64,000 bases of DNA from Gemmatimonadota bacterium. Its GTDB lineage: Bacteria > Gemmatimonadota > Gemmatimonadetes > Gemmatimonadales > GWC2-71-9. Within the stretch, counting starts at the first letter, position 1, and each line of letters starts with the position of its first letter. The stretch spans positions 1-64,000 of the forward strand of contig JANYKV010000186.1 in assembly GCA_025358055.1 (NCBI GenBank). Direction: 5' to 3'. Under the pieces are notes generated by a model. That model saw only the letters and a list, made by a program, of their open reading frames with translations. It did not search any database and had not been told where the DNA came from. The translations under genes and the position numbers were made by a program. Shown here in pieces: positions 24,202-35,309 of the stretch.

Positions 24202-25131
24202 TTACGCGTTTCTCAATGCCTGGAGCATCTCGTCGGCCGATCCCCAGCGCTCTTCCCGCTGCTTCGCCAATGCCTTCATGATCACCATGGCCATGCTGGG
24301 CGGCGTGCTCGGCGCGAGTCGGAGCAAATCGGGAGGTGGCTCCGACTGTTGCATGCGCAGGACCACCACTTCGTTACGGTGATGAAATGGTGGGCGACCC
24401 GCAAGGCACTCGTAGAGGACGCAACCGACCGAATAGAGGTCACTCCGAGGATCGATCTCCTCGAGCCCCAGGACTTGCTCGGGGCTCATGTAACTCGAAG
24501 TCCCCACTGCCACCCCCGAGCGAGTGAGGCGATCGGTGCCGGACAGGGCTACCGCCCGCGCGATGCCAAAATCGAGAAGCACCGCTCCAGGCCTCGCGAG
24601 GATGATATTGTCTGGTTTGACATCTCGATGCACCACCTGATGCGCATGGGCGTGGCTCAGGGCATCCAAGAGGTCGCCGCCGATTCTGAGGGCGTCTTCG
24701 GGCGGCAAGAAGCGGCGGAGATCCAGGGCCTGTTTGAGGGTAGGGCCTTCGAGGTACGGCATGACATAATACACCAGCCAGTCCTGCTCTCCGGAATCGA
24801 TCAGGCGGCCAACCTTCGGGTGGTCCAAGCGGGCGATGAGACGGATCTCGCGAAGAAACCGGTCGGCGGAGACCGTGGCGCAGAGTTCCGGACGGAGGAT
24901 TTTGAGGGCGACATCCTGGCCCGCCGAATCTTGGGCAAGGTAGACTACCGACGTTCCGCCCCGACCGAGTTCCCGGTCCACGGAGTACCGGCCGGCGAGC
25001 GCTTTGCGGACGATGGGCAGTAGGTCGCGAATGAGTTTAGCTCCCGGCCGGAACCTGAGGCCCCAAGGAGACTCAAGAACCCTGGGATCATAGGCGCGTG
25101 GTGAGGTTTCCGCCAGCAGAGTTGGAGCCAA
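24202..25131 (-). CDS. Pkn2-type serine/threonine protein kinase
   Basis: Hanks-type kinase domain with all signature motifs: glycine loop ELGRGGTSVVYLA, ATP-binding ALKIL, catalytic HRDVKPDNIIL, DFGIA, the activation segment with GTSSYMSPEQVLG and a final RW-containing helix. It has no transmembrane segment or sensory domain, so it is likely soluble and controlled by other proteins. The start is uncertain: TTG at 25131 is the nearest codon before the kinase core; upstream frame to 25173 runs through a terminator hairpin and is unlikely to be coding. The 200-bp gap before the hybrid kinase gene (24000-24201) shows nothing recognisable. Confidence 0.88.
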   Translation of the reverse strand: MAPTLLAETSPRAYDPRVLESPWGLRFRPGAKLIRDLLPIVRKALAGRYSVDRELGRGGTSVVYLAQDSAGQDVALKILRPELCATVSADRFLREIRLIARLDHPKVGRLIDSGEQDWLVYYVMPYLEGPTLKQALDLRRFLPPEDALRIGGDLLDALSHAHAHQVVHRDVKPDNIILARPGAVLLDFGIARAVALSGTDRLTRSGVAVGTSSYMSPEQVLGLEEIDPRSDLYSVGCVLYECLAGRPPFHHRNEVVVLRMQQSEPPPDLLRLAPSTPPSMAMVIMKALAKQREERWGSADEMLQALRNA

Positions 25132-25167
25132 GAAAAGCCCGGGGGGCGCGTTTGAGCGCCCCCCGGG
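25130..25167 (-). terminator. intrinsic terminator after the Lys-rich protein gene
   Basis: Perfect 12-bp arms (25138-25149 and 25156-25167, CCCGGGGGGCGC and its complement) with a 6-nt loop; on the minus strand the hairpin is followed by CTTTTCTT. It sits 24 bp beyond the stop of the 84-residue gene, so that gene is probably a stand-alone transcript. Confidence 0.85.
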
Positions 25168-25190
25168 GAACAACCGAGTGACGGCTCGAG

Positions 25191-25445
25191 TTAGTTCTTC
25201 TTCACGGAATCAGCGGCAGCCTTCTTACCCTTTTTCCATGCCTTCTTGCTCTTCTTGCTCATCTTCTTCATGCCAGTGTCGGTCTTAGCTTCCGCCTTTG
25301 CCATCGCCGGGGCTGTGGTCGCGGCCTTCGCAACCTTCGCAGCCTTCTTGCCAGTGTCGGCCTTCGCGGCCGGCTGCTGGGCCGCCACGACGCCCGCGAA
25401 CAACACGGACAGGATCGCGGCGCTGAACAGGGACTTACGGATCAT
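25191..25445 (-). CDS. small exported Lys/Ala-rich protein
   Basis: An 84-residue protein starting with a Sec signal peptide (MIRKSLFSAAILSVLFAGVVAAQQ). The mature part of about 60 residues is roughly one-third lysine and one-third alanine, with two similar blocks (ADTGKKAAKVAKA and AKTDTGMKKMSKKSKKAWKK). The composition resembles histone H1-like or cationic linker peptides but there is no recognised family. It would be a strongly basic periplasmic or surface peptide. A sigma-54 promoter at 25531-25545 and an intrinsic terminator at 25130-25167 bracket it as a single-gene unit, which argues it is a real gene. A start codon ATG at 25445 is clear; GGAG-like purines (TCCTGGAGAGACGC) precede it. 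Confidence 0.75.
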   Translation of the reverse strand: MIRKSLFSAAILSVLFAGVVAAQQPAAKADTGKKAAKVAKAATTAPAMAKAEAKTDTGMKKMSKKSKKAWKKGKKAAADSVKKN

Positions 25446-25494
25446 GCGTCTCTCCAGGAAGTGAGCCCACCGAGATCTCGGACTTGTCGCGTGC

Positions 25495-25508
25495 TGTCGG
25501 GCCCGACA
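25495..25508. promoter_or_regulatory. 14-bp perfect palindrome in the leader of the Lys-rich gene
   Basis: TGTCGGGCCCGACA reads the same on both strands. It lies about 11-24 nt downstream of the predicted sigma-54 start point and 50 nt upstream of the ORF. It could be an operator or an RNA hairpin. Confidence 0.4.
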
Positions 25509-25530
25509 AACAGCATCGGGAACCCATCAG

Positions 25531-25545
25531 GCAAGCGGTGGGCCA
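25531..25545 (-). promoter_or_regulatory. sigma-54 (-24/-12) promoter for the Lys-rich exported protein
   Basis: The minus strand reads TGGCCCACCGCTTGC, against the consensus TGGCAC-N5-TTGC: the GG and GC pairs are separated by exactly 10 bp and only one base differs in the fixed positions. The predicted start at about 25519 gives a leader of about 75 nt to the ATG at 25445. A GACA-N3-TGTC site lies about 140 bp upstream, a usual distance for an activator-binding site. Confidence 0.65.
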
Positions 25546-25681
25546 AACGGTGGAAGCTGGCAAACTGAACCGGAGCGGCGAATCGCGAGGAAAAACAGAT
25601 CAGTTTGCCCCGGAAACGGCTGCCCGGAGGAGTTCCCAGACGAAACCGGGACACCCGTGCGTGACACCTTGACCTCGACTG

Positions 25682-25692
25682 GACAAACTGTC
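25682..25692. promoter_or_regulatory. GACA-N3-TGTC palindrome, candidate activator site
   Basis: GACAAACTGTC, identical to the site at 28674-28684. It begins 6 bp past the stop of the NtrC-type regulator gene and about 140 bp upstream of the -24 element of the sigma-54 promoter at 25531-25545. Confidence 0.55.
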
Positions 25693-25698
25693 GCGGGT

Positions 25699-27135
25699 TT
25701 ATGCTTTGGTCATCCCCCAGCGCTGGAGCATCCGGCTGAGGGTGCGGCGAGAGATCCCGAGGATTTGTGAGGCGCGATCCCGGTTCCCGCCGGTCTCCTG
25801 AAGCACCCTCAAAACATGCAGCCGTTCAACGTCAGCCAACGAGGCGAACGACGTGGGCGCATCCCCGGTTCCGCTGCCCGCAGCTGAGATCTGGGCCGGA
25901 ATGACCGCGGACGTCCCTCCCCGGCGAAGGTCCGCTGGGAGGTGTTCGGGGCCGATCACGTCTTGGGCGGCCAAGACGAGGGCCCGTTCCAGCACGTTGT
26001 GGAGTTCGCGGACATTTCCCGGCCAATCGTAGATCAACAACTGATGTAGGGCTTCGGGATCTACCGCGACCGGCCCCCGGTTGTGATGCGCGCCAAGACG
26101 AACCAGAAAGAAATTGATCAACAAGGGGAGGTCTTGCCGTCTGGTCCGAAGCGGCGGCAGTTCAAGCGTCACCACGTTCAGACGGTAGTAGAGATCGGCC
26201 CGGAACCGGTTCTCCCGCACCAAGGTCTCAAGATTGTTGTGCGTCGCGGCGATGACGCGGACATCCACGGGAATGGTGGCTTCTGCGCCGACGGGTTGGA
26301 TCTCGTGCTCTTGGAGTACCCGGAGGAGTCGAGATTGGAGGGCTGGGCTGATATCACCAATCTCATCGAGAAAAATGGTCCCTTTGTCCGCCTCCCGAAA
26401 TAGGCCCGGGCGAGCTCCGGCCGCACCGGTGAACGCGCCCTTCACATGGCCAAAGAGTTCGCTTTCCAAAAGTCCCTCTGCCAATGCGGAACAATTGACC
26501 GCCACGAATCGCCGGTTGGCCCGATCGGAGTATTTGTGAATAATTCGCGCGATGAGCTCTTTCCCGGTCCCGGTCTCACCGGTGATCAGGACCGTGGCCT
26601 GACTCGGAGCGACTCGCGCCACCGTCTTCATGACTTCAATGATGGCGGGGCTATGGCCGACCAGAGCGAGACTTCCCGCCGTGGTGAGCTCATCGCCCAG
26701 CGGGGTCCCGGCCAACGGCATTTTCTCCAGCGGAACCGCCACCCGACGGCGCTCGAGCGCTCTCCCGATGGCGATGCGGAGGGTGTTGATGTCGTACGGT
26801 TTGCTGATGAAATCGTATGCCCCGGCCCGGATCGCCTCGCCCGCCGTCGTCGCATCGCCGAACGCGGTCAGGACGAAGACAAGGGCCTCTGGGTCTCGTT
26901 CCCGGATGGTTCGGAGCAGGCCGAGGCCACTAGTTCCCGGCATTCGGAGGTCGGTGAGGACCGCATCGTACCGCCCCTCACGGTCGATCGCCTGGATGGC
27001 CTCCTCGGCCGAGAGCGCCCGGGTTACCGTGTATGACTCGCGCTCGAGCACTTCGCCCAGCAACCGACATGCGTCCTCGTCGTCATCGACCAGGAGTAGC
27101 CGGGGTCGAGGCGTGCCGATCGATGGACTAGACAT
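25699..27135 (-). CDS. sigma-54-dependent (NtrC-family) response regulator
   Basis: A 478-residue activator with three domains. The receiver has VDDDEDA and a phosphoacceptor in AVLTDLRMPG. The AAA+ domain has Walker A GETGTGKEL, the sigma-54 contact loop GAFTGA, Walker B GTIFLDEIGD and the R-finger region FRADLYYRL. A Fis-type helix-turn-helix closes the protein (ASQILGISRRTLSRMLQRWG). ATG at 27135 is preceded by GGAAGGAG and overlaps the kinase gene by 8 bp; the ORF upstream to 27198 is inside the kinase. Operon partner of the histidine kinase. Its natural targets are the two sigma-54 promoters that flank the pair. Confidence 0.93.
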   Translation of the reverse strand: MSSPSIGTPRPRLLLVDDDEDACRLLGEVLERESYTVTRALSAEEAIQAIDREGRYDAVLTDLRMPGTSGLGLLRTIRERDPEALVFVLTAFGDATTAGEAIRAGAYDFISKPYDINTLRIAIGRALERRRVAVPLEKMPLAGTPLGDELTTAGSLALVGHSPAIIEVMKTVARVAPSQATVLITGETGTGKELIARIIHKYSDRANRRFVAVNCSALAEGLLESELFGHVKGAFTGAAGARPGLFREADKGTIFLDEIGDISPALQSRLLRVLQEHEIQPVGAEATIPVDVRVIAATHNNLETLVRENRFRADLYYRLNVVTLELPPLRTRRQDLPLLINFFLVRLGAHHNRGPVAVDPEALHQLLIYDWPGNVRELHNVLERALVLAAQDVIGPEHLPADLRRGGTSAVIPAQISAAGSGTGDAPTSFASLADVERLHVLRVLQETGGNRDRASQILGISRRTLSRMLQRWGMTKA

Positions 27136-28609
27136 GAGCTCCTTCCAGCGCGCCCCGAAGGGTAAGTCGCCACGCCGTGCCGCGCTCACTCGGTTCATAG
27201 GTGAGATCTCCTCCCATCGTCCGCGCCAGTCGGCGGCTCACCGTAAGTCCCAAGCCCGTGCCCCCCGGCCCCTTGGTCGTCGCGAAGGGGTTGAACAGGT
27301 GGGCCTTGGCTTCCTCGGCCAGGCCCGGCCCATTGTCCGCGACGACGATCCACGCCGAGCCGTCTCGGTGCCCCGCCGCGACCGTGATCTGGCCGCCGGG
27401 GCGAAGGGCTTCGATGGCGTTCTTGAGTAGGTTGAGCAAAATCTGCTCGACCAGTGCCGGATCACACTCGGCCATAACTGCTGCTGCCGCATCGTTCTCG
27501 GCCCCGGGGATGAGCCGGGTGGCCACTCCGGCATCCTCACAGGAGGGTTCCATGAAGTCGAGAATGCGTCGAATGATCGAAAGTAGGTCGACCGCCTCCG
27601 CCGTCGGCTGAGGCCAAGCCCCACGACGTAGCCAGGCGCGGACGATTCCGGCCACTCGCTCCACCTGGCCGAGTAGGAGGTTCACCCGCCGGACCGCGTC
27701 CGGGGCTTTATTGGGCTCCAAATCGTCGCGCAGCAACTGGAAATGCCCACTCATCGTGTTGAGGGGGGTCCCGATCTCATGGGCGAACGTCGCGGTGGTT
27801 TCTTCCATCAGAGCCAACCGGTCGAACGACCGGGCCCGCTCTTCGAGAGCCTGCAGGGCGGCTCGGGCCTCACTCTCTCGCTCCCGATCGGCGAGTGCGG
27901 TCCGGAGCTCGTTGTAGCGCCGGGCCAATTGACGAAACTCCGGAGGGCCCAGTTCCGTGGCAGGGGGCCCGAATTGGGCGCCCGCGTGCGCCCCGGCAAA
28001 CGCCTGCCCCAGCGCCGCGAGCGGCCGACCCACCCAGCGGGAGGTCAAGAGGGCGATCCCGCCCGCCAGGAGCAATGCTGCCGTGAGCGCGAGGATGTAC
28101 GCCCGCTGGCGCTCCCGGCTGGCCCAGTCGTGAAACCGGGCCGTCGACACCGACAGTTGAAGCACAGCTACGGGTCTGCGGGTCCCGATCGGGGTCGCGA
28201 CATTCCAGCCTTGGGCCTCACCCGACGTCAGCCACACGACTGAGGTCCGTGTTTCCAACGCCTTCAGGTCCCCACCGCGGGGCCGCATCGGAACAGTACT
28301 ATCTGTGGCCGCAACCAGCACGATGCCATGGGGTTCCTTCGATTTGACAAAAACGGCGGCCGTGGTGCCGGCCAGCCGCTTTCCACTCCACGCTGCCAAA
28401 CCGGACGCAAGGCTCTGGGGGTCCCCGTTGGGGGCCAACCGGGTGAGATAACTCGCGAGCGTGTTCGCGAGGACGATCGCCTCTTGGCGCACATCGTCGA
28501 GATTCGACCGCTCCGTCCAGTACAGTGAGATCTCGGTTGCGCTGAAGATCAGCGTACCTGCGCTGAGAGCCGCGATGATGGCCAACCGCTGAGAAAGGCC
28601 CATTGCCAT
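27128..28609 (-). CDS. membrane sensor histidine kinase (ZraS/AtoS-like)
   Basis: A 493-residue kinase beginning with a membrane helix (LAIIAALSAGTLIFSA), a periplasmic domain of about 150 residues, a second helix (AYILALTAALLLAGGIALL), a HAMP-like linker, a HisKA domain with FAHEIGTPLNTMSGHF and an ATPase with NLLKNAIEAL, ADNGPGLAEEA and GGTGLGLTVSRRLA. The periplasmic part suggests it senses envelope or external conditions. ATG at 28609 is chosen because it begins the first helix; a second ATG is at 28603. Translationally coupled to the NtrC-type regulator. The divergent sigma-54-driven operon lies just upstream. Confidence 0.9.
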   Translation of the reverse strand: MAMGLSQRLAIIAALSAGTLIFSATEISLYWTERSNLDDVRQEAIVLANTLASYLTRLAPNGDPQSLASGLAAWSGKRLAGTTAAVFVKSKEPHGIVLVAATDSTVPMRPRGGDLKALETRTSVVWLTSGEAQGWNVATPIGTRRPVAVLQLSVSTARFHDWASRERQRAYILALTAALLLAGGIALLTSRWVGRPLAALGQAFAGAHAGAQFGPPATELGPPEFRQLARRYNELRTALADRERESEARAALQALEERARSFDRLALMEETTATFAHEIGTPLNTMSGHFQLLRDDLEPNKAPDAVRRVNLLLGQVERVAGIVRAWLRRGAWPQPTAEAVDLLSIIRRILDFMEPSCEDAGVATRLIPGAENDAAAAVMAECDPALVEQILLNLLKNAIEALRPGGQITVAAGHRDGSAWIVVADNGPGLAEEAKAHLFNPFATTKGPGGTGLGLTVSRRLARTMGGDLTYEPSERGTAWRLTLRGALEGAHV

Positions 28610-28654
28610 GGACTCAAAATACCTGGAGTGGGCGAAAGACGAAGGTGCGAGCGG

Positions 28655-28684
28655 GACAGTCTGTCTGACCAGGGACAAACTGTC
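28655..28684. promoter_or_regulatory. paired GACA-N3-TGTC activator sites
   Basis: Two palindromes, GACAGTCTGTC at 28655-28665 and GACAAACTGTC at 28674-28684, with 19 bp between centres (close to two helix turns). They lie between the divergent kinase gene and the headgroup operon, 67-96 bp upstream of the -24 element at 28751. A third copy lies at 25682-25692. Confidence 0.6.
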
Positions 28685-28750
28685 ATGGTCAGAGCGACGG
28701 TGTAGAGGGCGAAGCGCAAATGGCCATTGGACTTGAGGATGCGTGGTCGG

Positions 28751-28765
28751 CGGCACAGCGCTTGC
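28751..28765 (+). promoter_or_regulatory. sigma-54 (-24/-12) promoter for the seven-gene operon
   Basis: The plus strand reads CGGCACAGCGCTTGC, differing from TGGCAC-N5-TTGC only at the first base, with the exact 10 bp between GG and GC. The predicted transcription start near 28777 is 40 nt before the TTG start of the HAD gene at 28817, which has AAGGGGAG before it. Confidence 0.65.
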
Positions 28766-28816: not shown

Positions 28817-29503
28817 TTGCTGACCAAGAAAGCCTTGGGCATCCTCTTCGATTTTGGCGGCACCCTCGACGCGGATGGAGAGCCTTGGGGGCTTCGATTC
28901 CACCGCTCGTACGCCCGGGAAGGTGGTCGTCTTCCCCTAGATGCTTTCTTGGTTTTGTTCGAGGAATCCGATCGGCGCTTGGAACGTTGGAGCGGCATCG
29001 AGACCCTTGGCCTCCGAGATACCGCCTACGTGCAGGCTAAACTCCTTGCCGAACTGCTCCCCGCCGACTCCGCCGTGACGGTGGATCGCATGGCCGAGGG
29101 GTTCGTCAGCGACGCCCAGCGAATTGCTGACCGCAACCTTCCCATTCTCCACGCACTCTCGGCCCAATTTCGCCTCGGCGTCATTTCCAATTACACTGGC
29201 AATCTCCGACCCTGCCTTGCTGAGCTTGGCTTGGCCGATTGCTTTGAGGTGACCATCGATTCCGCCTTGGTCGGGGTGCGGAAGCCCGATCCACGCATCT
29301 TTCAAACGACGCTGGAGGCTCTGGGGCTCGACGCCCATGAATGCTGGATGGTCGGTGACAATCCGTTTGCGGATATCCGTGCGGCCGCGTCGATGGGGTT
29401 CCTCACTTGTTGGATTGCTCCGGCCACCCGGGTGGTCCCAGACGATGTCCGCCCGAGCCAGCGCATTTCTGAACTCCCTCAGCTCCCTGCCGTGGTGAAC
29501 TGA
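28817..29503 (+). CDS. HAD-superfamily hydrolase
   Basis: A 228-residue HAD protein. TTG at 28817 is used: AAGGGGAG ends 6 nt upstream and motif I follows at once. The motifs are FDFGGTLDADG (motif I), VISNYTGN (motif II), VRKPDPRIF (motif III lysine) and MVGDNPFADI (motif IV). In motif I the second aspartate of DxD is glycine (DFGGTL). That variant occurs in several HAD branches and leaves the phosphatase acid/base role uncertain. It is the first gene of an operon whose next six genes follow with little or no spacing. Expected role: removing phosphate from a pathway intermediate, or another HAD reaction. Confidence 0.85.
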   Translation: MLTKKALGILFDFGGTLDADGEPWGLRFHRSYAREGGRLPLDAFLVLFEESDRRLERWSGIETLGLRDTAYVQAKLLAELLPADSAVTVDRMAEGFVSDAQRIADRNLPILHALSAQFRLGVISNYTGNLRPCLAELGLADCFEVTIDSALVGVRKPDPRIFQTTLEALGLDAHECWMVGDNPFADIRAAASMGFLTCWIAPATRVVPDDVRPSQRISELPQLPAVVN

Positions 29504-29505
29504 CG

Positions 29506-30213
29506 ATGCATGGTTTGATTCTCGCCGGGGGTGAAGGCTCACGTCTGTCCGCGGATGGGATCACCATTCCGAAGGCCCTGGTGCCGCTAGCGGGACAACC
29601 GCTTATCGGTCGACTGGTGGATACGTTCAAAACAATCGGGTGCGAGACCGTGACCTGTGCGGTGCGGCGGCCGGTGGCGAACGCCGTGAATCAAATGGTC
29701 TTGGCCGGCGCCTTGCCGGGCGCGACGATTCTCTCCTGCGAAACCTCATCCTCCCTTCACACCCTTGCTGCTGGGCTCGAGGTAATGCCGCCAGGCCCCG
29801 CCTTCTGTTCGATGGTGGACACCATTATGCCTCTCGAGGACTGGCACCGGGTTTTCCAGTCGGCCACCCGGGCGCTCGCCGAGGGGGCAGATGCCGTGGT
29901 CGCGGTGACCCCCTTCGTGGATGACGAGAAACCACTGTATGTTGCACGCCGTCCGGACGGTTGGATTGGCGCTTTCAGCGGTCAGGAAACGACCCCCCCG
30001 CTGGTAACCGGCGGCGTCTATCTCTTGAGCTCCCGAACCCGGGATCTAGTTCCCCGGGTTGTTGGTCTTGGGTTGGGCCGGATGCGTGGGTTCCTGGCGT
30101 GGCTCGTGGAGCATGGCTACCGGGTTGGATCCGCTGAGGTGGAGCGTATCGTAGATGTGGACCGGCGTTGGGACCTCGAATTGGCGACTGCGTGGTTGGG
30201 AGGAGTTGAATGA
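29506..30213 (+). CDS. nucleotidyltransferase of the sugar/polyol-phosphate family
   Basis: A 235-residue NTP_transferase protein: LILAGGEGSRLSADG binds the NTP, and PKALVPLAGQPLIGR binds the phosphosugar loop; FCSMVDTIMPL carries the metal-binding Asp. Small stand-alone members of this size activate polyol or choline phosphates, or sugars, to CDP- or UDP-derivatives. The CDP-alcohol phosphotransferase encoded three genes later suggests CTP as donor, in the manner of inositol-1-phosphate cytidylyltransferase; this is inference. Starts 2 bp after the HAD gene and overlaps the next gene by 4 bp. Confidence 0.85.
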   Translation: MHGLILAGGEGSRLSADGITIPKALVPLAGQPLIGRLVDTFKTIGCETVTCAVRRPVANAVNQMVLAGALPGATILSCETSSSLHTLAAGLEVMPPGPAFCSMVDTIMPLEDWHRVFQSATRALAEGADAVVAVTPFVDDEKPLYVARRPDGWIGAFSGQETTPPLVTGGVYLLSSRTRDLVPRVVGLGLGRMRGFLAWLVEHGYRVGSAEVERIVDVDRRWDLELATAWLGGVE

Positions 30214-31100
30214 CCAGATCCTACGATAGCCCGACGCCGCATGGAGGTGGGAGCCATCCCAGGCTCGTCGCGATCTATCGGAGTCCCACGTACTCTCCGC
30301 TCCAGCACGCCAGTAACGACACCGCGATTCTCGACGAGACGACGCGGTGGTTCGAGGAATGGGGCTATGACGTCCACCGGGTGGGCGAGCGCGACGTTGT
30401 TGGGGGGGCCATTCCGCACGCCGATCTGTACCTGAACATGTGCCAAGGAGCCGCTGCCTCAGAAGTCCTGGTGCCGCTTGAATCCACCGGCGCCCCGGTA
30501 TTCAACCGACCGACCAGCGTCCTGAATTGTCATCGACACCGACTAGTGCGATTGCTCGACCAGAGCGGGCTTGCGTTCCCGACCACCAAGTTGGTTCCGA
30601 CCTCCGGGCCGGTCGACGAGCATCAACGGGAGGAAGTGGAACGGCTGCGCGAACGAGCGGTGTGGATCAAGCGGGGAGATGTTCATGCCGAACGCCCCGA
30701 AGACGTCGTGGCCGTGCTGAACGGAGGGTTTTCTCGAGCGATGGCCACTTTTGCCGAACGAGGCATTCCGTGGGTGGCGCTCCAAGAGCATGTCCCGGGG
30801 CCGGTGCTCAAGTTCTATGGCGTGGCCTCGGGCGGCTTGTTCCACGCCTACGTTGCCGAAACCAAGGCCGAACCCACTCCTGATATCGTTGATCTTGCGG
30901 TGCTCCGGCGACTGGCGTTCGCCGCCGCCGCACAGGTAGGTCTCGATGTTTTTGGCGGCGATGTCGCAGTCCCTGAGCCGAGTCACCCCGTCCTCATCGA
31001 TCTCAACGACTGGCCAAGCTTCGCGCCGATTCGAACTCGCGCGGCCCGTGCCATTGCAGATCATATTCATGCGAAGTTTCAGCAAGGAGTTGCGTCATGA
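30210..31100 (+). CDS. ATP-grasp-fold protein of unknown substrate
   Basis: A 296-residue protein. The central VWIKRGDVHAERPEDVV and ALQEHVPGPVLKFYGVA segments match ATP-grasp subdomain strands, and the closing VLIDLNDWPSFAP supplies the metal-binding Asp/Asn pair (DLND). This DxN-(W/F)PSF ending recalls inositol polyphosphate kinases (ITPK1 type) as well as RimK-like ligases. ATP-grasp enzymes join acids to amines or phosphorylate polyols. Its place between a nucleotidyltransferase and an aminotransferase fits either a polyol kinase or an amide ligase. The overlaps (ATGA on both sides) show translational coupling. Substrate unresolved. Confidence 0.7.
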   Translation: MTRSYDSPTPHGGGSHPRLVAIYRSPTYSPLQHASNDTAILDETTRWFEEWGYDVHRVGERDVVGGAIPHADLYLNMCQGAAASEVLVPLESTGAPVFNRPTSVLNCHRHRLVRLLDQSGLAFPTTKLVPTSGPVDEHQREEVERLRERAVWIKRGDVHAERPEDVVAVLNGGFSRAMATFAERGIPWVALQEHVPGPVLKFYGVASGGLFHAYVAETKAEPTPDIVDLAVLRRLAFAAAAQVGLDVFGGDVAVPEPSHPVLIDLNDWPSFAPIRTRAARAIADHIHAKFQQGVAS

Positions 31101-32431
31101 CCCAGGTGTCTCCGGTGGTGACCCTGCCAGGCCCGAAATCGGTGGCGATCTTCGAGAGCGAATCGAAATACGCCGCCCCGGGGACGCAGTCCGTCGCCCT
31201 GTTTAGCAAGATCTCTTTCGAGCGGGGCGAAGGGGCCATTCTCTACGACGCGGACGGCAACGCATTCATCGACCTGCTGGCCGGGGTGGGGGTCGCCAGC
31301 CTAGGCTATGCGCACCCGCGGTACGTCGACGCGATGCAGAAACAGATTGCCAAGCTGCACGTAGGGAGTTTCACGACCCCCCATCGGGCCGAACTCGTCA
31401 AGCTCCTGGCGGACATCACCCCCGGCGATCTAAGTCGGACCCAGTTCTATTCGAGCGGAGCCGAGGCGGTCGAAGCGGCGTTTCGGTTGGCCAAGGCCGC
31501 GACAAAAAAGCAGGACGTCATCGGGTTCTGGGGTGGGTTCCACGGCAAGACCGCGGGCGTGTTGCCGCTGTTGGGCGGCAACTTCAAGCACGGTCTCGGC
31601 CCGTTGATGCCGGGCGCCTACGCTTCGCCATACGCGAATTGTGCCCGGTGCGAGTTCAACCTGAGGTTCGACAGCTGCCACTGGCACTGTGTGGAGTTCC
31701 TCAAACGGAAGATCGAGCACGAAACGGCCAACAATGTGGCCGCTATCATCGTGGAGCCCATTCAAGGGACCGCTGGCAATATCGTTCCCCCGCCCGGATA
31801 CCTTAAGTTGCTTCGCGACGTGGCTGATCAGATCGGCGCGCTCCTGATCTGCGATGAGATGATCACCGGCTTCGGTCGGACCGGACGGATGTTCGCGATC
31901 GAGCACGACAATGTGCTCCCGGATATCATCACGGTGGGCAAGGGGTTTGGCGGCGGCTTCCCGATGAGCGGGGTCATCGCGAGAGAGGGGATCGCGTTCT
32001 CGAAGCCGTGGGCGAATCCGAGTGGAAGCTCGTCGAGCTATGGCGGAAACCCGTTAGCCTCTATGGCGGCGCTCACCGCAATCCGGATTACGCGAGACGA
32101 GGGGTTGGTGGAGCACTCGCGTCGGCTCGGCGAGAAAATGTTGATGGAAATGCGTCGCTGGGAACGGGAGATCCCGATCGTGAGCGACGTCCGGGGCCGC
32201 GGCCTGATGATCGGGATGGATCTCGTGAAACCGGGGACGCGAACCCTGTTAGACAAAACCACCACGCGGGAGATCTTCGATGCACTCCTCTCCCGCGGCG
32301 TACTGGCCATGATCTACAATCCCGAAGTGCGGATCAACCCGCCCTTGGTCATCCGGGAAAGCGACGCGATGGAAGCTCTGTCCCGCATGGAGGAGGTCTT
32401 GCGTGACGCTGCCGACAGACTCGGCGCATAA
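31097..32431 (+). CDS. class III PLP-dependent aminotransferase
   Basis: A 444-residue enzyme with the fold-type I features of class III aminotransferases: YSSGAEAVEAAFRLAK, GFHGKTAG, ICDEMITGFGRTGR and the PLP lysine in TVGKGFGGGFPMSG (K282). A cysteine cluster C182-x2-C185-x8-C194-x3-C198 (CARCEFNLRFDSCHWHC) lies before the cofactor domain; comparable clusters exist in some GABA-aminotransferase relatives. The overlap is 4 bp with the upstream ATP-grasp gene and 29 bp with the downstream CDP-alcohol phosphotransferase gene. In this operon it likely aminates a keto-sugar, keto-cyclitol or aldehyde made by the dehydrogenase encoded two genes downstream. Confidence 0.9.
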   Translation: MTQVSPVVTLPGPKSVAIFESESKYAAPGTQSVALFSKISFERGEGAILYDADGNAFIDLLAGVGVASLGYAHPRYVDAMQKQIAKLHVGSFTTPHRAELVKLLADITPGDLSRTQFYSSGAEAVEAAFRLAKAATKKQDVIGFWGGFHGKTAGVLPLLGGNFKHGLGPLMPGAYASPYANCARCEFNLRFDSCHWHCVEFLKRKIEHETANNVAAIIVEPIQGTAGNIVPPPGYLKLLRDVADQIGALLICDEMITGFGRTGRMFAIEHDNVLPDIITVGKGFGGGFPMSGVIAREGIAFSKPWANPSGSSSSYGGNPLASMAALTAIRITRDEGLVEHSRRLGEKMLMEMRRWEREIPIVSDVRGRGLMIGMDLVKPGTRTLLDKTTTREIFDALLSRGVLAMIYNPEVRINPPLVIRESDAMEALSRMEEVLRDAADRLGA

Positions 32432-33314
32432 GGGAGCGGAGATCGAAGAGTGGATTGATCTCCACTTCTTCCGGCCGATAGGCATACGCATTGCGCGCGT
32501 GCTGTACCCAACGCGGATTTCACCGGATCAGGTGACGCTGATCGCGCTCGTGATTGGGCTCGCGGCCGGGCATCTGATGTTTTATCGATCCGCCTGGCTC
32601 AACGCCGCGGGTGTTGGCCTCTTCATCATTTCCGATTTCTTCGATAGTGCGGACGGGCAACTCGCGCGATTGCGAGGCACCTCGACCCGGTTCGGCCGCA
32701 TGCTGGACGGAATTTCTGATAACGCGCGGTTTGTGAATCTCTACCTCCATTTGGCCGCGCGCATCTTGCTGACCCGAGCGACCCCGTTGGGGATGCTCGA
32801 AACGGTTGCTCTGGTCCTTCTGGCTGGGCTGAGCCATTCCATGCAAAGCACGATCGCGGATTTCATCCGCCAGGTGTACCTCTTTGTGGCCGATGGTGGG
32901 GAAGGGGAATTGGACCTTCCGGAAGACGTTGCCGTCACGTCTGGCCCGGGCCTGTTCGACCGCCTCCAGATCGGCATTTACCGTGGGTACGTCGAGCGCC
33001 AAGCCACTGCGTGTCCTCGGTCGATCGCCGTGGTGCGTCGGATCCGGCAGGGTGGCTCCAGCGAAGAAGTGGCTGCGCGCTGGGGCCACGTCCAACTTGG
33101 GACGGTCCGTGCCTGCGCTTTGATCGGGCAAAACATTCGTTTTCTGCTGCTCGCCCTGACTGTGGTGCCGGGGTGGCCCGAAGGTTTTCTGTGGATCACG
33201 CTCGTCCCGCTCAACCTAGTGTTGCTGGTGCTCCTCCGCCGCCACGAAAGCCGAGTCACGGAGTTGGCCCGGACCGGCGACCTCCCGTCGATTCCGCTCG
33301 CCGGCGTCGCGTAG
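32403..33314 (+). CDS. CDP-alcohol phosphatidyltransferase-family membrane enzyme
   Basis: The family catalytic motif D-x2-D-G-x2-A-R-x8-G-x3-D-x3-D is complete: D81, D84-G85, A88-R89, G98, D102 and D106 (DSADGQLARLRG then FGRMLDGISD). These enzymes move a phospho-alcohol from a CDP-linked donor to an acceptor alcohol, as in phosphatidylinositol or phosphatidylglycerol-phosphate synthesis. Five or six membrane helices. GTG at 32403 overlaps the aminotransferase by 29 bp. In this operon it is the likely transfer step, using a CDP-activated headgroup or CDP-diacylglycerol. The acceptor is unknown. Confidence 0.9.
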   Translation: MTLPTDSAHKGAEIEEWIDLHFFRPIGIRIARVLYPTRISPDQVTLIALVIGLAAGHLMFYRSAWLNAAGVGLFIISDFFDSADGQLARLRGTSTRFGRMLDGISDNARFVNLYLHLAARILLTRATPLGMLETVALVLLAGLSHSMQSTIADFIRQVYLFVADGGEGELDLPEDVAVTSGPGLFDRLQIGIYRGYVERQATACPRSIAVVRRIRQGGSSEEVAARWGHVQLGTVRACALIGQNIRFLLLALTVVPGWPEGFLWITLVPLNLVLLVLLRRHESRVTELARTGDLPSIPLAGVA

Positions 33315-34316
33315 ATGCCCCCGCGGCGCGGGGTGCTCTTCGGACTGGGCGGCATCGCTCGACAATCGCACCTTCCCGCGTTTCTTAGGGAGGACGGTGT
33401 TCGCGACCGGCTCGAGATCGTCGCGGCGGTGGACCTCGGTGGCCCTGGAGTGTTACCCGTTGCTGGAATCCCCCTGCTGCGTGACATCAGTGAAGTGGCA
33501 TCACTCGGTCCCATCGACTTCATCGATATCTGTACCCCCACCTCGAGTCACCTCGACTTGACCCTCTGGGGGCTGAGCCAGGGGTATCACGTGCTGTGCG
33601 AAAAACCCGTGGCCCTGACACGGGGAGAAGTGGGACGGATATCCGACATCGCCAACTCTCGGGGACGGGTTGTTATGGCGTGCCACCAGTACCGCTTCAA
33701 TCCCGCCTGGCGGAAGGTTCGGGAGTGGTTGGAGGCCGGATTCGTTGGACGCTGGCACCTGGCGGAGTTTCAAGTGTATCGGATGGCCGCGGATGCCGGC
33801 ACCGCCGTGAATGACGCGCCATGGCGGGGAAGTAGGGATGTCAGCCGGGGTGGTGTGCTTCTCGATCATGGTACCCATCTGATCTACCAACTTCTCGATG
33901 TGGCCGGGATGCCCTCCGGCGTCCGCGGCTGGACCGGGCGGCTTCGCCACCATTACGATGTTGAGGACACCGCGCAAGTTCTGCTTGAATTCGAAGGGCG
34001 ACTCGGCAGTTTTTTTCTCACCTGGGCCGCGGACCGCCGAGAAACCACGATACGATTCACCGGTGACCAAGGAAGCATCGAGTGGCGCGGCGGTCTCTTG
34101 CGTCGTTCGGGACGCCACGGAGACGAAACCCTCGACTTCTCGGCTGAACTCGACAAAGCGTCCTACTATCGATGGTTTGTGTCGTTGTTTCACCGCTTTG
34201 CCGATCAGATTGATCAACAGGACGGCCACACCTCCCTCGAAGACATCTCGCGCGTTACTCGAGTCCTGGAAGCCGCCTACGAATCGGCGAATTCCGGTGT
34301 GCGAGTGACGGTATAG
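33315..34316 (+). CDS. Gfo/Idh/MocA-family oxidoreductase (cytosolic)
   Basis: ATG at 33315 immediately follows the previous stop. The 333-residue enzyme has a somewhat divergent Rossmann segment (GLGGIARQSHLPAFL), IDICTPTSSHLDL, VLCEKPVALTRGE (EKP complete) and GGVLLDHGTHLIYQLL, where Asp and His line the substrate pocket. Family members oxidise inositols and sugars to ketones. Encoded in the same operon as a class III aminotransferase, it is a good candidate to supply the keto substrate for amination, as in aminocyclitol routes. No signal peptide. Confidence 0.88.
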   Translation: MPPRRGVLFGLGGIARQSHLPAFLREDGVRDRLEIVAAVDLGGPGVLPVAGIPLLRDISEVASLGPIDFIDICTPTSSHLDLTLWGLSQGYHVLCEKPVALTRGEVGRISDIANSRGRVVMACHQYRFNPAWRKVREWLEAGFVGRWHLAEFQVYRMAADAGTAVNDAPWRGSRDVSRGGVLLDHGTHLIYQLLDVAGMPSGVRGWTGRLRHHYDVEDTAQVLLEFEGRLGSFFLTWAADRRETTIRFTGDQGSIEWRGGLLRRSGRHGDETLDFSAELDKASYYRWFVSLFHRFADQIDQQDGHTSLEDISRVTRVLEAAYESANSGVRVTV

Positions 34317-35309
34317 GTGAGTCGCACCGCACGCCTTCTCGCCTTTCTGCTTGGCGTGGCGGTCTTCGCCGCCTTCGTTCTCCTCAACGATCCCAAGACA
34401 CTACTCGCGGGTCTCCGCTCCGCCGGATGGGTTCTCGCCATCCTGGTACCGCTGTGGGGAGTTACCTACATCTGCAACGCGATCGCCTGGCAATTGCTGA
34501 CCTCCAAAGGGGGCGAGCGGCTCCCGTTTTTCCGGGCCTATACCATCACTATCCTGTCCTTCGCCATCAACTACGCTACCCCCTTGTTCAGCCTGGGTGG
34601 TGAGCCCCTCAAAATCGCCCTGGCCGCGAACTGGCTCGGCCAGCGACGGGCGGCGGGCTCGGTCGTGGCGTTTCGCCTCCTGCATGGCCTGAGTCACATC
34701 CTGGTATTCACTCTCGCCCTTATTCCCGCAGCGATCGTCCTGCCGCATACTCCGGCCATCATGATCGGGATCGGTTGCGCCTTTGTGGGTTTTGTGGCGG
34801 CAGCCGCGTTCCTGCTCTCTCGTCATCGGGAAGGCCTATTTGTCCATCTGTTGGGATTGCTAGGACGGATCCCACTTCTCCGCCGGTTGGCCGTAAAGCT
34901 CGAGCCGAAACGGGAAAGCCTGCATGAAATGGACGCCCACCTCACCGCGATCATCACGTCGTCACCCAAGCGCTTCTACCTGGCCCTCGCGGTGGAAATG
35001 GTGGGACGAATCATCTCGATGATGGAATTCGTGGTCATCCTGCATGGGATGCATCTTGGCGCGGACCCGATCAGAGCATTCGTGGTGGGGAATTTTTCGT
35101 CCCTCGTCTCAAATTTGATGATTTTCATACCCTACGAACTGGGCTCCAAAGAAGGAAGCCTCTACTTGGTATTCAAGTGGCTCGGTTTCGAGCCGGCTTT
35201 GGGAATTCAGGCGTCGCTGTTGAGTCGGATGCGTGAAGTCGTGTGGGTAGGGATCGGTATTGTCCTTATTTGGGCCATGGGTGGACGGCCCAGGGTCCGG
35301 TCTGCCTAG
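34317..35309 (+). CDS. lysylphosphatidylglycerol synthase TM-region (YbhN/UPF0104) family protein
   Basis: A 330-residue protein with about eight membrane helices. The family core is seen in INYATPLFSLGGEPLKIALAA and FVVGNFSSLVSNLMIFIPYELGSKEG, matching the flippase-like domain of MprF and YbhN proteins without the aminoacyl-transferase part. Such proteins flip or handle modified phospholipids or polyprenyl-linked sugars. It is the last gene of the operon and directly abuts the preceding stop codon. It could move the finished lipid to the outer leaflet. Its 3-prime end overlaps the convergent kinase gene by 4 bp. Confidence 0.88.
   Translation: MSRTARLLAFLLGVAVFAAFVLLNDPKTLLAGLRSAGWVLAILVPLWGVTYICNAIAWQLLTSKGGERLPFFRAYTITILSFAINYATPLFSLGGEPLKIALAANWLGQRRAAGSVVAFRLLHGLSHILVFTLALIPAAIVLPHTPAIMIGIGCAFVGFVAAAAFLLSRHREGLFVHLLGLLGRIPLLRRLAVKLEPKRESLHEMDAHLTAIITSSPKRFYLALAVEMVGRIISMMEFVVILHGMHLGADPIRAFVVGNFSSLVSNLMIFIPYELGSKEGSLYLVFKWLGFEPALGIQASLLSRMREVVWVGIGIVLIWAMGGRPRVRSA

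Follow-up and report, generated by a model that had tools for sequence, protein, structure and literature searches.

We conclude that the locus analysed here is one member of a sigma-54/two-component module that recurs across phyla and whose output would be a secreted polycation or an envelope-binding protein. The whole explanation, in which a histidine kinase (HK) and an NtrC-type response regulator (RR) act through sigma-54 on a secreted, cationic, envelope-binding product, was given a probability of about 0.7. Within it, sigma-54/two-component regulation of the peptide is well supported by the sequence comparisons, and binding of anionic envelope polymers under envelope stress would be the function of the peptide. 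The anatomy of the locus, its rare UAS, its conservation and its recurrence across phyla were established by computation. The following features were assigned in the window (the whole stretch of 64,000 nucleotides that was analysed).

25130-25167, minus strand: intrinsic terminator (12-bp GC stem and T-rich tail; hairpin at 25138-25167)
25191-25445, minus strand: gene for a putative secreted Lys/Ala-rich peptide, 84 codons, from ORF and composition
25380-25445, minus strand: putative signal-peptide coding part MIRKSLFSAAILSVLFAGVVAA, by inspection (basic N-end, hydrophobic core, A-x-A-like end)
25531-25545, minus strand: predicted sigma-54 -24/-12 promoter TGGCCCACCGCTTGC, exact TGGC-N7-TTGC with GG/GC spacing, predicted start near 25519
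25559-25609, no strand: two weaker half-matching sites, GGCAAACTGAT at 25599-25609 and TTCAGTTTGCC at 25559-25569, seen by inspection between UAS and promoter
25663-25692, no strand: tandem enhancer-type site (candidate UAS), GACAGTTTGTC-N8-GTCAAGGTGTC, two 11-bp palindromes 19 bp apart
25699-27198, minus strand: NtrC-type response regulator (receiver, AAA+ with GAFTGA, Fis HTH), from domain searches
27128-28609, minus strand: sensor histidine kinase (HisKA, HATPase) with an sCache/PDC-like extracytoplasmic domain
28655-28684, no strand: second tandem candidate UAS, GACAGTCTGTC-N8-GACAAACTGTC, between the kinase gene and the divergent operon
28751-28765, plus strand: sigma-54-like promoter CGGCACAGCGCTTGC of the divergent operon, 9/11
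28817-35309, plus strand: divergent seven-gene operon, from domain searches

The order on the minus strand is histidine kinase, NtrC-type regulator, intergenic region, 84-codon ORF and terminator. The ORF has a GGAG ribosome site, a GC3 of 0.81 and Lys codons biased towards AAG. The original prediction of a signal peptide followed by a mature part that is about one-third Lys was borne out, with a putative signal-like N-end and a predicted mature part of about 62 residues, 19 of them Lys (31%), for which composition gives a net charge of about +15 and a pI of 10.4. Here and throughout, signal peptides were called by a crude hydrophobicity rule. The strong terminator claimed for the unit was also recovered, as folding gave -41 kcal/mol over an 81-nt stretch (z -4.9). 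The longest form of a Ser/Thr kinase ORF (24202-25173) begins within this terminator, and its true start must therefore be further in. In the predicted 5' leader, a GC-rich palindrome, TGTCGGGCCCGACA, lies at 25493-25512, directly past the predicted start site. Pfam and NCBIfam searches returned no match for the peptide, and no direct homologue was found among 100 relatives; the sole match, in G020 (E 0.0017), was rejected as an unrelated secreted ORF.

The sigma-54-type motif with exact GG/GC spacing was found as predicted, 85 bp upstream of the ORF, and scores 9 of the 11 specified bases of TGGCACGN4TTGC. However, the window holds 13 sites of this score, and TGGCN7TTGC is not enriched genome-wide (168 sites versus 211 for the reversed control); therefore, the motif alone proves nothing. 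For one given gene, the chance of finding the exact pattern in the 150 bp upstream is about 0.3%, whereas the site had originally been picked from the whole window. These counts favour a coincidental TGGCN7TTGC, in which case sigma-70-type promoters or read-through from the RR gene would account for transcription of the peptide. Such a coincidence was nevertheless judged very unlikely, since GG and TTGC do not vary across six aligned orthologous intergenic regions, a UAS lies in front and the arrangement recurs across phyla. This context of palindromes and conservation at orthologous loci, on which the original prediction had not remarked, settles the promoter call beyond chance. A scan with the pattern TGGCN6TTGC was dropped for its wrong spacing.

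The UAS motif consists of two 11-bp palindromes, GNCANNNTGNC, arranged in tandem with a period of 19 bp and separated by 8 bp. A GACAnnnTGTC palindrome lies 6 bp past the stop codon of the regulator gene, and two more lie between the kinase gene and the divergent operon. In the 4.43-Mb genome, GACARNYTGTC occurred at nine sites versus two for the reversed-pattern control, and three of the nine flank this HK-RR pair (binomial probability about 1e-10, calculated after the motif had been seen). The 30-bp tandem pattern matched the locus in five of nine genomes (G000 twice, G008, G012, G043 and G121), with no control matches in the nine. The tandem pair at 25663-25692 is placed about 115 bp before the -24 element. 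NtrC-type enhancers show a tandem dimer-site layout 80-150 bp from the promoter (PMC4987338), and by analogy the layout before the peptide promoter is of this kind. The other six genomic palindromes were considered as extra regulon members and rejected as unconvincing by inspection, several appearing to be coding and one lying in a repeat. No sigma-54-like site was found beside these six, which look like chance matches.

The genome carries a single copy of rpoN. Together with the regulator domains, the adjacent kinase and the conserved promoter with its palindromic UAS, this identifies a sigma-54-dependent NtrC-type module. The longest ORF of the kinase reaches 28756, while homology begins at about residue 50-52; the ORF is thus over-extended by about 49 codons (28610-28756), and the extension overlaps the UAS and divergent promoter region. 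The sensor domain was modelled as a Cache/PDC fold (pLDDT 88.5), for which the nearest solved fold is the WalK extracellular domain (TM 0.61); a fold of this type, as modelled, names no ligand. In a rough count by eye the domain showed no visible acidity, and direct sensing of a cationic peptide as in PhoQ is therefore without support.

Kinase orthologues with 44-59% identity were found in eight further genomes, all of the same family, and a wider class search returned no close HK orthologue outside this family (8 of 394 genomes, own family only). The order regulator, palindrome(s), -24/-12 promoter and small secreted ORF is kept at five Gemmatimonadota loci, in G012, G121, G043, G050 and G052. 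The palindrome is paired at four of these five loci (G012, G121, G043 and G052, with a 9-bp spacer in G052), and G050 has a single clear palindrome behind the regulator. G003 and G002, two other orthologous loci at which the end of the RR gene could be read, lacked the small secreted ORF, and the G008 contig stops within the kinase. The ORFs behind the regulator encode predicted secreted products of 116-134 aa and share the same promoter. Four of them (L015, L016, L017 and L021) end in a PG_binding_1 domain (E 1e-12 to 1e-15), and one carries a helix-hairpin-helix domain, HHH_3 (E 4e-9). By sequence, the statement that the peptide has no recognised homologue stands; by position it has counterparts, whose payloads are PG-binding, HhH or Lys/Arg/His-rich.

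A Pfam search showed that the window peptide lacks the PG_binding_1 C-terminal domain. It shares with the orthologous payloads a MIRK-type start, a similar linker style and DTG/AW motifs, and its tail is only Lys-rich; what probably links it to the PG-binding proteins is its position, the MIRK-type start and the promoter. The presence of the domain in four of the five orthologous small ORFs, with the similar start and motifs in the alignment, would also suit a decayed PG_binding_1 protein that had lost its domain and drifted to a linker and a Lys-rich tail of little function. This was considered improbable, because the frame is open with codon bias, a ribosome site, a strong terminator and a conserved promoter, and domain-free Lys/Arg/His-rich forms are common in other phyla. 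In relatives the same cassette carries PG-binding, HhH or Lys/Arg/His-rich payloads, which suggests that what is conserved is a secreted, mostly polycationic, envelope-binding output and not a sequence family.

The same regulator probably has the divergent operon as its second output. Its promoter, 67 bp behind the second UAS pair, is probably the one that an accompanying prediction had counted as the first sigma-54 promoter. Its genes comprise those for a HAD hydrolase, an NTP transferase, an ATP-grasp-like ORF (no Pfam match), a class III aminotransferase, a CDP-alcohol phosphatidyltransferase, a Gfo/Idh-type (inositol-dehydrogenase-like) oxidoreductase and an LPG_synthase_TM-type flippase. 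From these domains, the operon looks like one of membrane-lipid headgroup type. In G050 (L021), the system likewise has HAD, NTP transferase and ATP-grasp-like genes beside it, with two palindromes there. DedA-family genes lie near the system at five Gemmatimonadota and two Acidobacteriota loci (L014, L015, L016, L017, L019, L066 and L076), and in other bacteria DedA genes act in resistance to cationic peptides (PMC6849406, PMC8692421). At L076, one DedA gene has a sigma-54 site of its own (10/11).

These neighbours bear on where the peptide would act. A secreted polycation might instead bind extracellular DNA or matrix, or antagonise neighbouring cells, as the HhH (ComEA-like) domain of one orthologous payload and the resemblance of Arg/His-rich tails to nucleic-acid binders would suggest. 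However, the lipid-headgroup and DedA membrane genes fit the cell's own envelope, and neither immunity nor export genes were found, so that an external target appears quite unlikely. A possible role in the envelope agrees with the neighbouring genes, with the PG-binding payloads and with the established connection between sigma-54 and the cell exterior (PMC3162934).

A genome scan with the kinase alignment yielded 80 loci, 55 of which had a co-directional regulator beside the kinase. At many of these distant loci, a predicted secreted ORF of 60-95 aa lies beside the pair with a -24/-12 site of 9-11/11 within about 150 bp. Composition varied by clade, with Lys-rich ORFs in Bdellovibrionota and some Acidobacteriota and Arg/His-rich ORFs in other Acidobacteriota. 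Under fixed rules, counting one ORF per locus, 20 of the 55 loci had a near-by cationic secreted small ORF and a sigma-54 site scoring 9/11 or better. Cationic candidates with such a site numbered 0 of 15 in far regions and 1 of 15 in control loci (Fisher 0.017 versus far regions and 0.0027 versus far and control combined), and the lone positive control locus, L061, is itself of the same type. Seven further loci had such a peptide with a weaker or missing site or with the RR not beside the kinase, and many distant loci lacked the small ORF. The regulators that bear the trait fall in several parts of one tree. Thus, a small secreted Lys/Arg/His-rich ORF with a sigma-54 site is found beside homologous HK-RR pairs across phyla. 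A single UAS dyad common to all phyla was sought and not found, since the dyads vary by clade. By inspection, inverted repeats lie about 80-110 bp before the promoters (L048-L080), TGTGGC-N24-GCCACA in Acidobacteriota and TTGCAAC-type in Bdellovibrionota; these are the probable UAS of each clade's regulator.

Several known systems resemble this arrangement. In the PrsK/PrsR PEP-CTERM system, an HK and an NtrC-type RR control secreted proteins, as proposed here. Unlike that system, the window locus has no PEP-CTERM tail, and its proteins missed the corresponding models (PEP_resp_reg, 362.5 bits versus 502.6; PEP_his_kin, 69.9 versus 300). The acid shock protein Asr is Lys/Ala-rich and similar in composition to the window peptide, and we know of no sigma-54 promoter or adjacent NtrC-type system for asr. 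The resemblance is one of type only, as Pfam and NCBIfam gave no Asr family match. Asr is a small periplasmic disordered chaperone that contributes to outer-membrane integrity (PMC10746267).

The original analogy was with ZraPSR, an NtrC-type two-component envelope-stress system with sigma-54 promoters (PMC4987338). ZraSR-ZraP of E. coli and Salmonella likewise joins an NtrC-type system to sigma-54 promoters for a small periplasmic protein and for a second unit on the other side. Comparison strongly supported one part of the analogy, namely that the adjacent system controls a small secreted basic protein in the sigma-54/NtrC manner, but not membership of the ZraP/ZraSR families. The peptide matched no ZraP family in Pfam or NCBIfam, and the NCBIfam cut-offs for ZraR and ZraS were missed (399.5 bits versus 760 for the regulator and 97.5 versus 479 for the kinase). 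Moreover, ZraP is a zinc-binding chaperone, whereas the chain of the window peptide is Lys-rich and of low complexity. QseE/QseG/QseF (GlrK/GlrR) is similarly a two-component system that acts through sigma-54 in envelope homeostasis and has an accessory protein outside the cytoplasm. Its UAS is of the inverted TGT..ACA type, given as TGTN12ACA (PMC6075780) or TGTC-N10-GACA (PMC4987338), and the comparable UAS core at the window locus is TGTC-N8-GACA. In contrast, the QseEGF outputs are the sRNA gene glmY and rpoE whereas the sigma-54 targets seen here are protein genes, QseG is a 237-aa lipoprotein unlike the window peptide, and the window regulator missed the GlrR equivalog cut-off (344 bits versus 763). 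The window system works like ZraPSR or QseEGF and belongs to neither.

These systems also provide precedents for a peptide that acts mainly on the extracytoplasmic domain of its own kinase, as a feedback or sensory subunit, and not as a structural envelope binder: ZraP represses ZraSR (PMC4987338) and QseG activates QseE (PMC6075780). The peptide gene adjoins the HK-RR pair and, in several Bdellovibrionota, directly precedes the kinase gene and is read in the same direction. However, the payload swaps among unrelated domains and low-complexity tails while the kinases change little, a pattern that is difficult to square with a specific contact, and the window peptide forms its own unit with its own terminator. 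A subunit role was therefore considered unlikely, though less so than the other alternatives.

For the preferred envelope-binding reading, we infer phosphotransfer, UAS binding, looping, secretion, envelope binding and the nature of the signal as follows. The HK would sense an extracytoplasmic condition through its Cache-like domain and phosphorylate the RR, whose dimers would bind the tandem palindromes at 25663-25692 and 28655-28684 and then oligomerise. By looping, the oligomerised RR would activate sigma-54 polymerase at two promoters, one yielding the small secreted cationic protein and the other the divergent operon of membrane-lipid headgroup type. Once exported, the peptide would most likely bind anionic envelope polymers (lipid A/phospholipid or peptidoglycan) through its Lys-rich tail and thereby reinforce or chaperone the envelope.

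In a broader reading, to which we give even odds, the locus represents an undescribed envelope-response system in at least Gemmatimonadota, Acidobacteriota and Bdellovibrionota, with one HK/NtrC-type lineage, a swappable secreted polycation or envelope-binding payload, clade-specific UAS dyads and, in places, coupling to lipid-headgroup synthesis or DedA genes. Selection would then act on charge and secretion and not on sequence, which would hide the peptides from family searches. If true, this would be a widespread envelope response in phyla whose handling of envelope stress is poorly understood. It would also be a clear example of conserved regulation and charge without conservation of protein sequence and domain. 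Searches confined to an open-access library found no matching paper on a Lys-rich secreted peptide under sigma-54/two-component control, and the absence of a match is no proof of novelty. Low-complexity cationic secreted peptides slip past homology annotation, and the sigma-54 regulator lineage offers a handle for finding them. In addition, the UAS and promoter form a ready reporter for asking which signal induces the peptide.

The arrangement recurs in soil and predatory bacteria that are only distantly related, with peptides that differ yet carry a positive charge in every case. A follow-up sample was drawn from orthologous regulators of two other families, many of which overlapped the first set; the distant paralogues L178 and L179 and the cut contig L159 were set aside. 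Among ten fresh complete loci of the main orthologue group, eight had a cationic ORF with a site of 9-11/11, including L161, in which the site ends in TTGT, not TTGC. At L077, a second secreted ORF (1371-1778, 135 aa) that is non-cationic and has a 10/11 sigma-54 site lies beside the cationic peptide gene.
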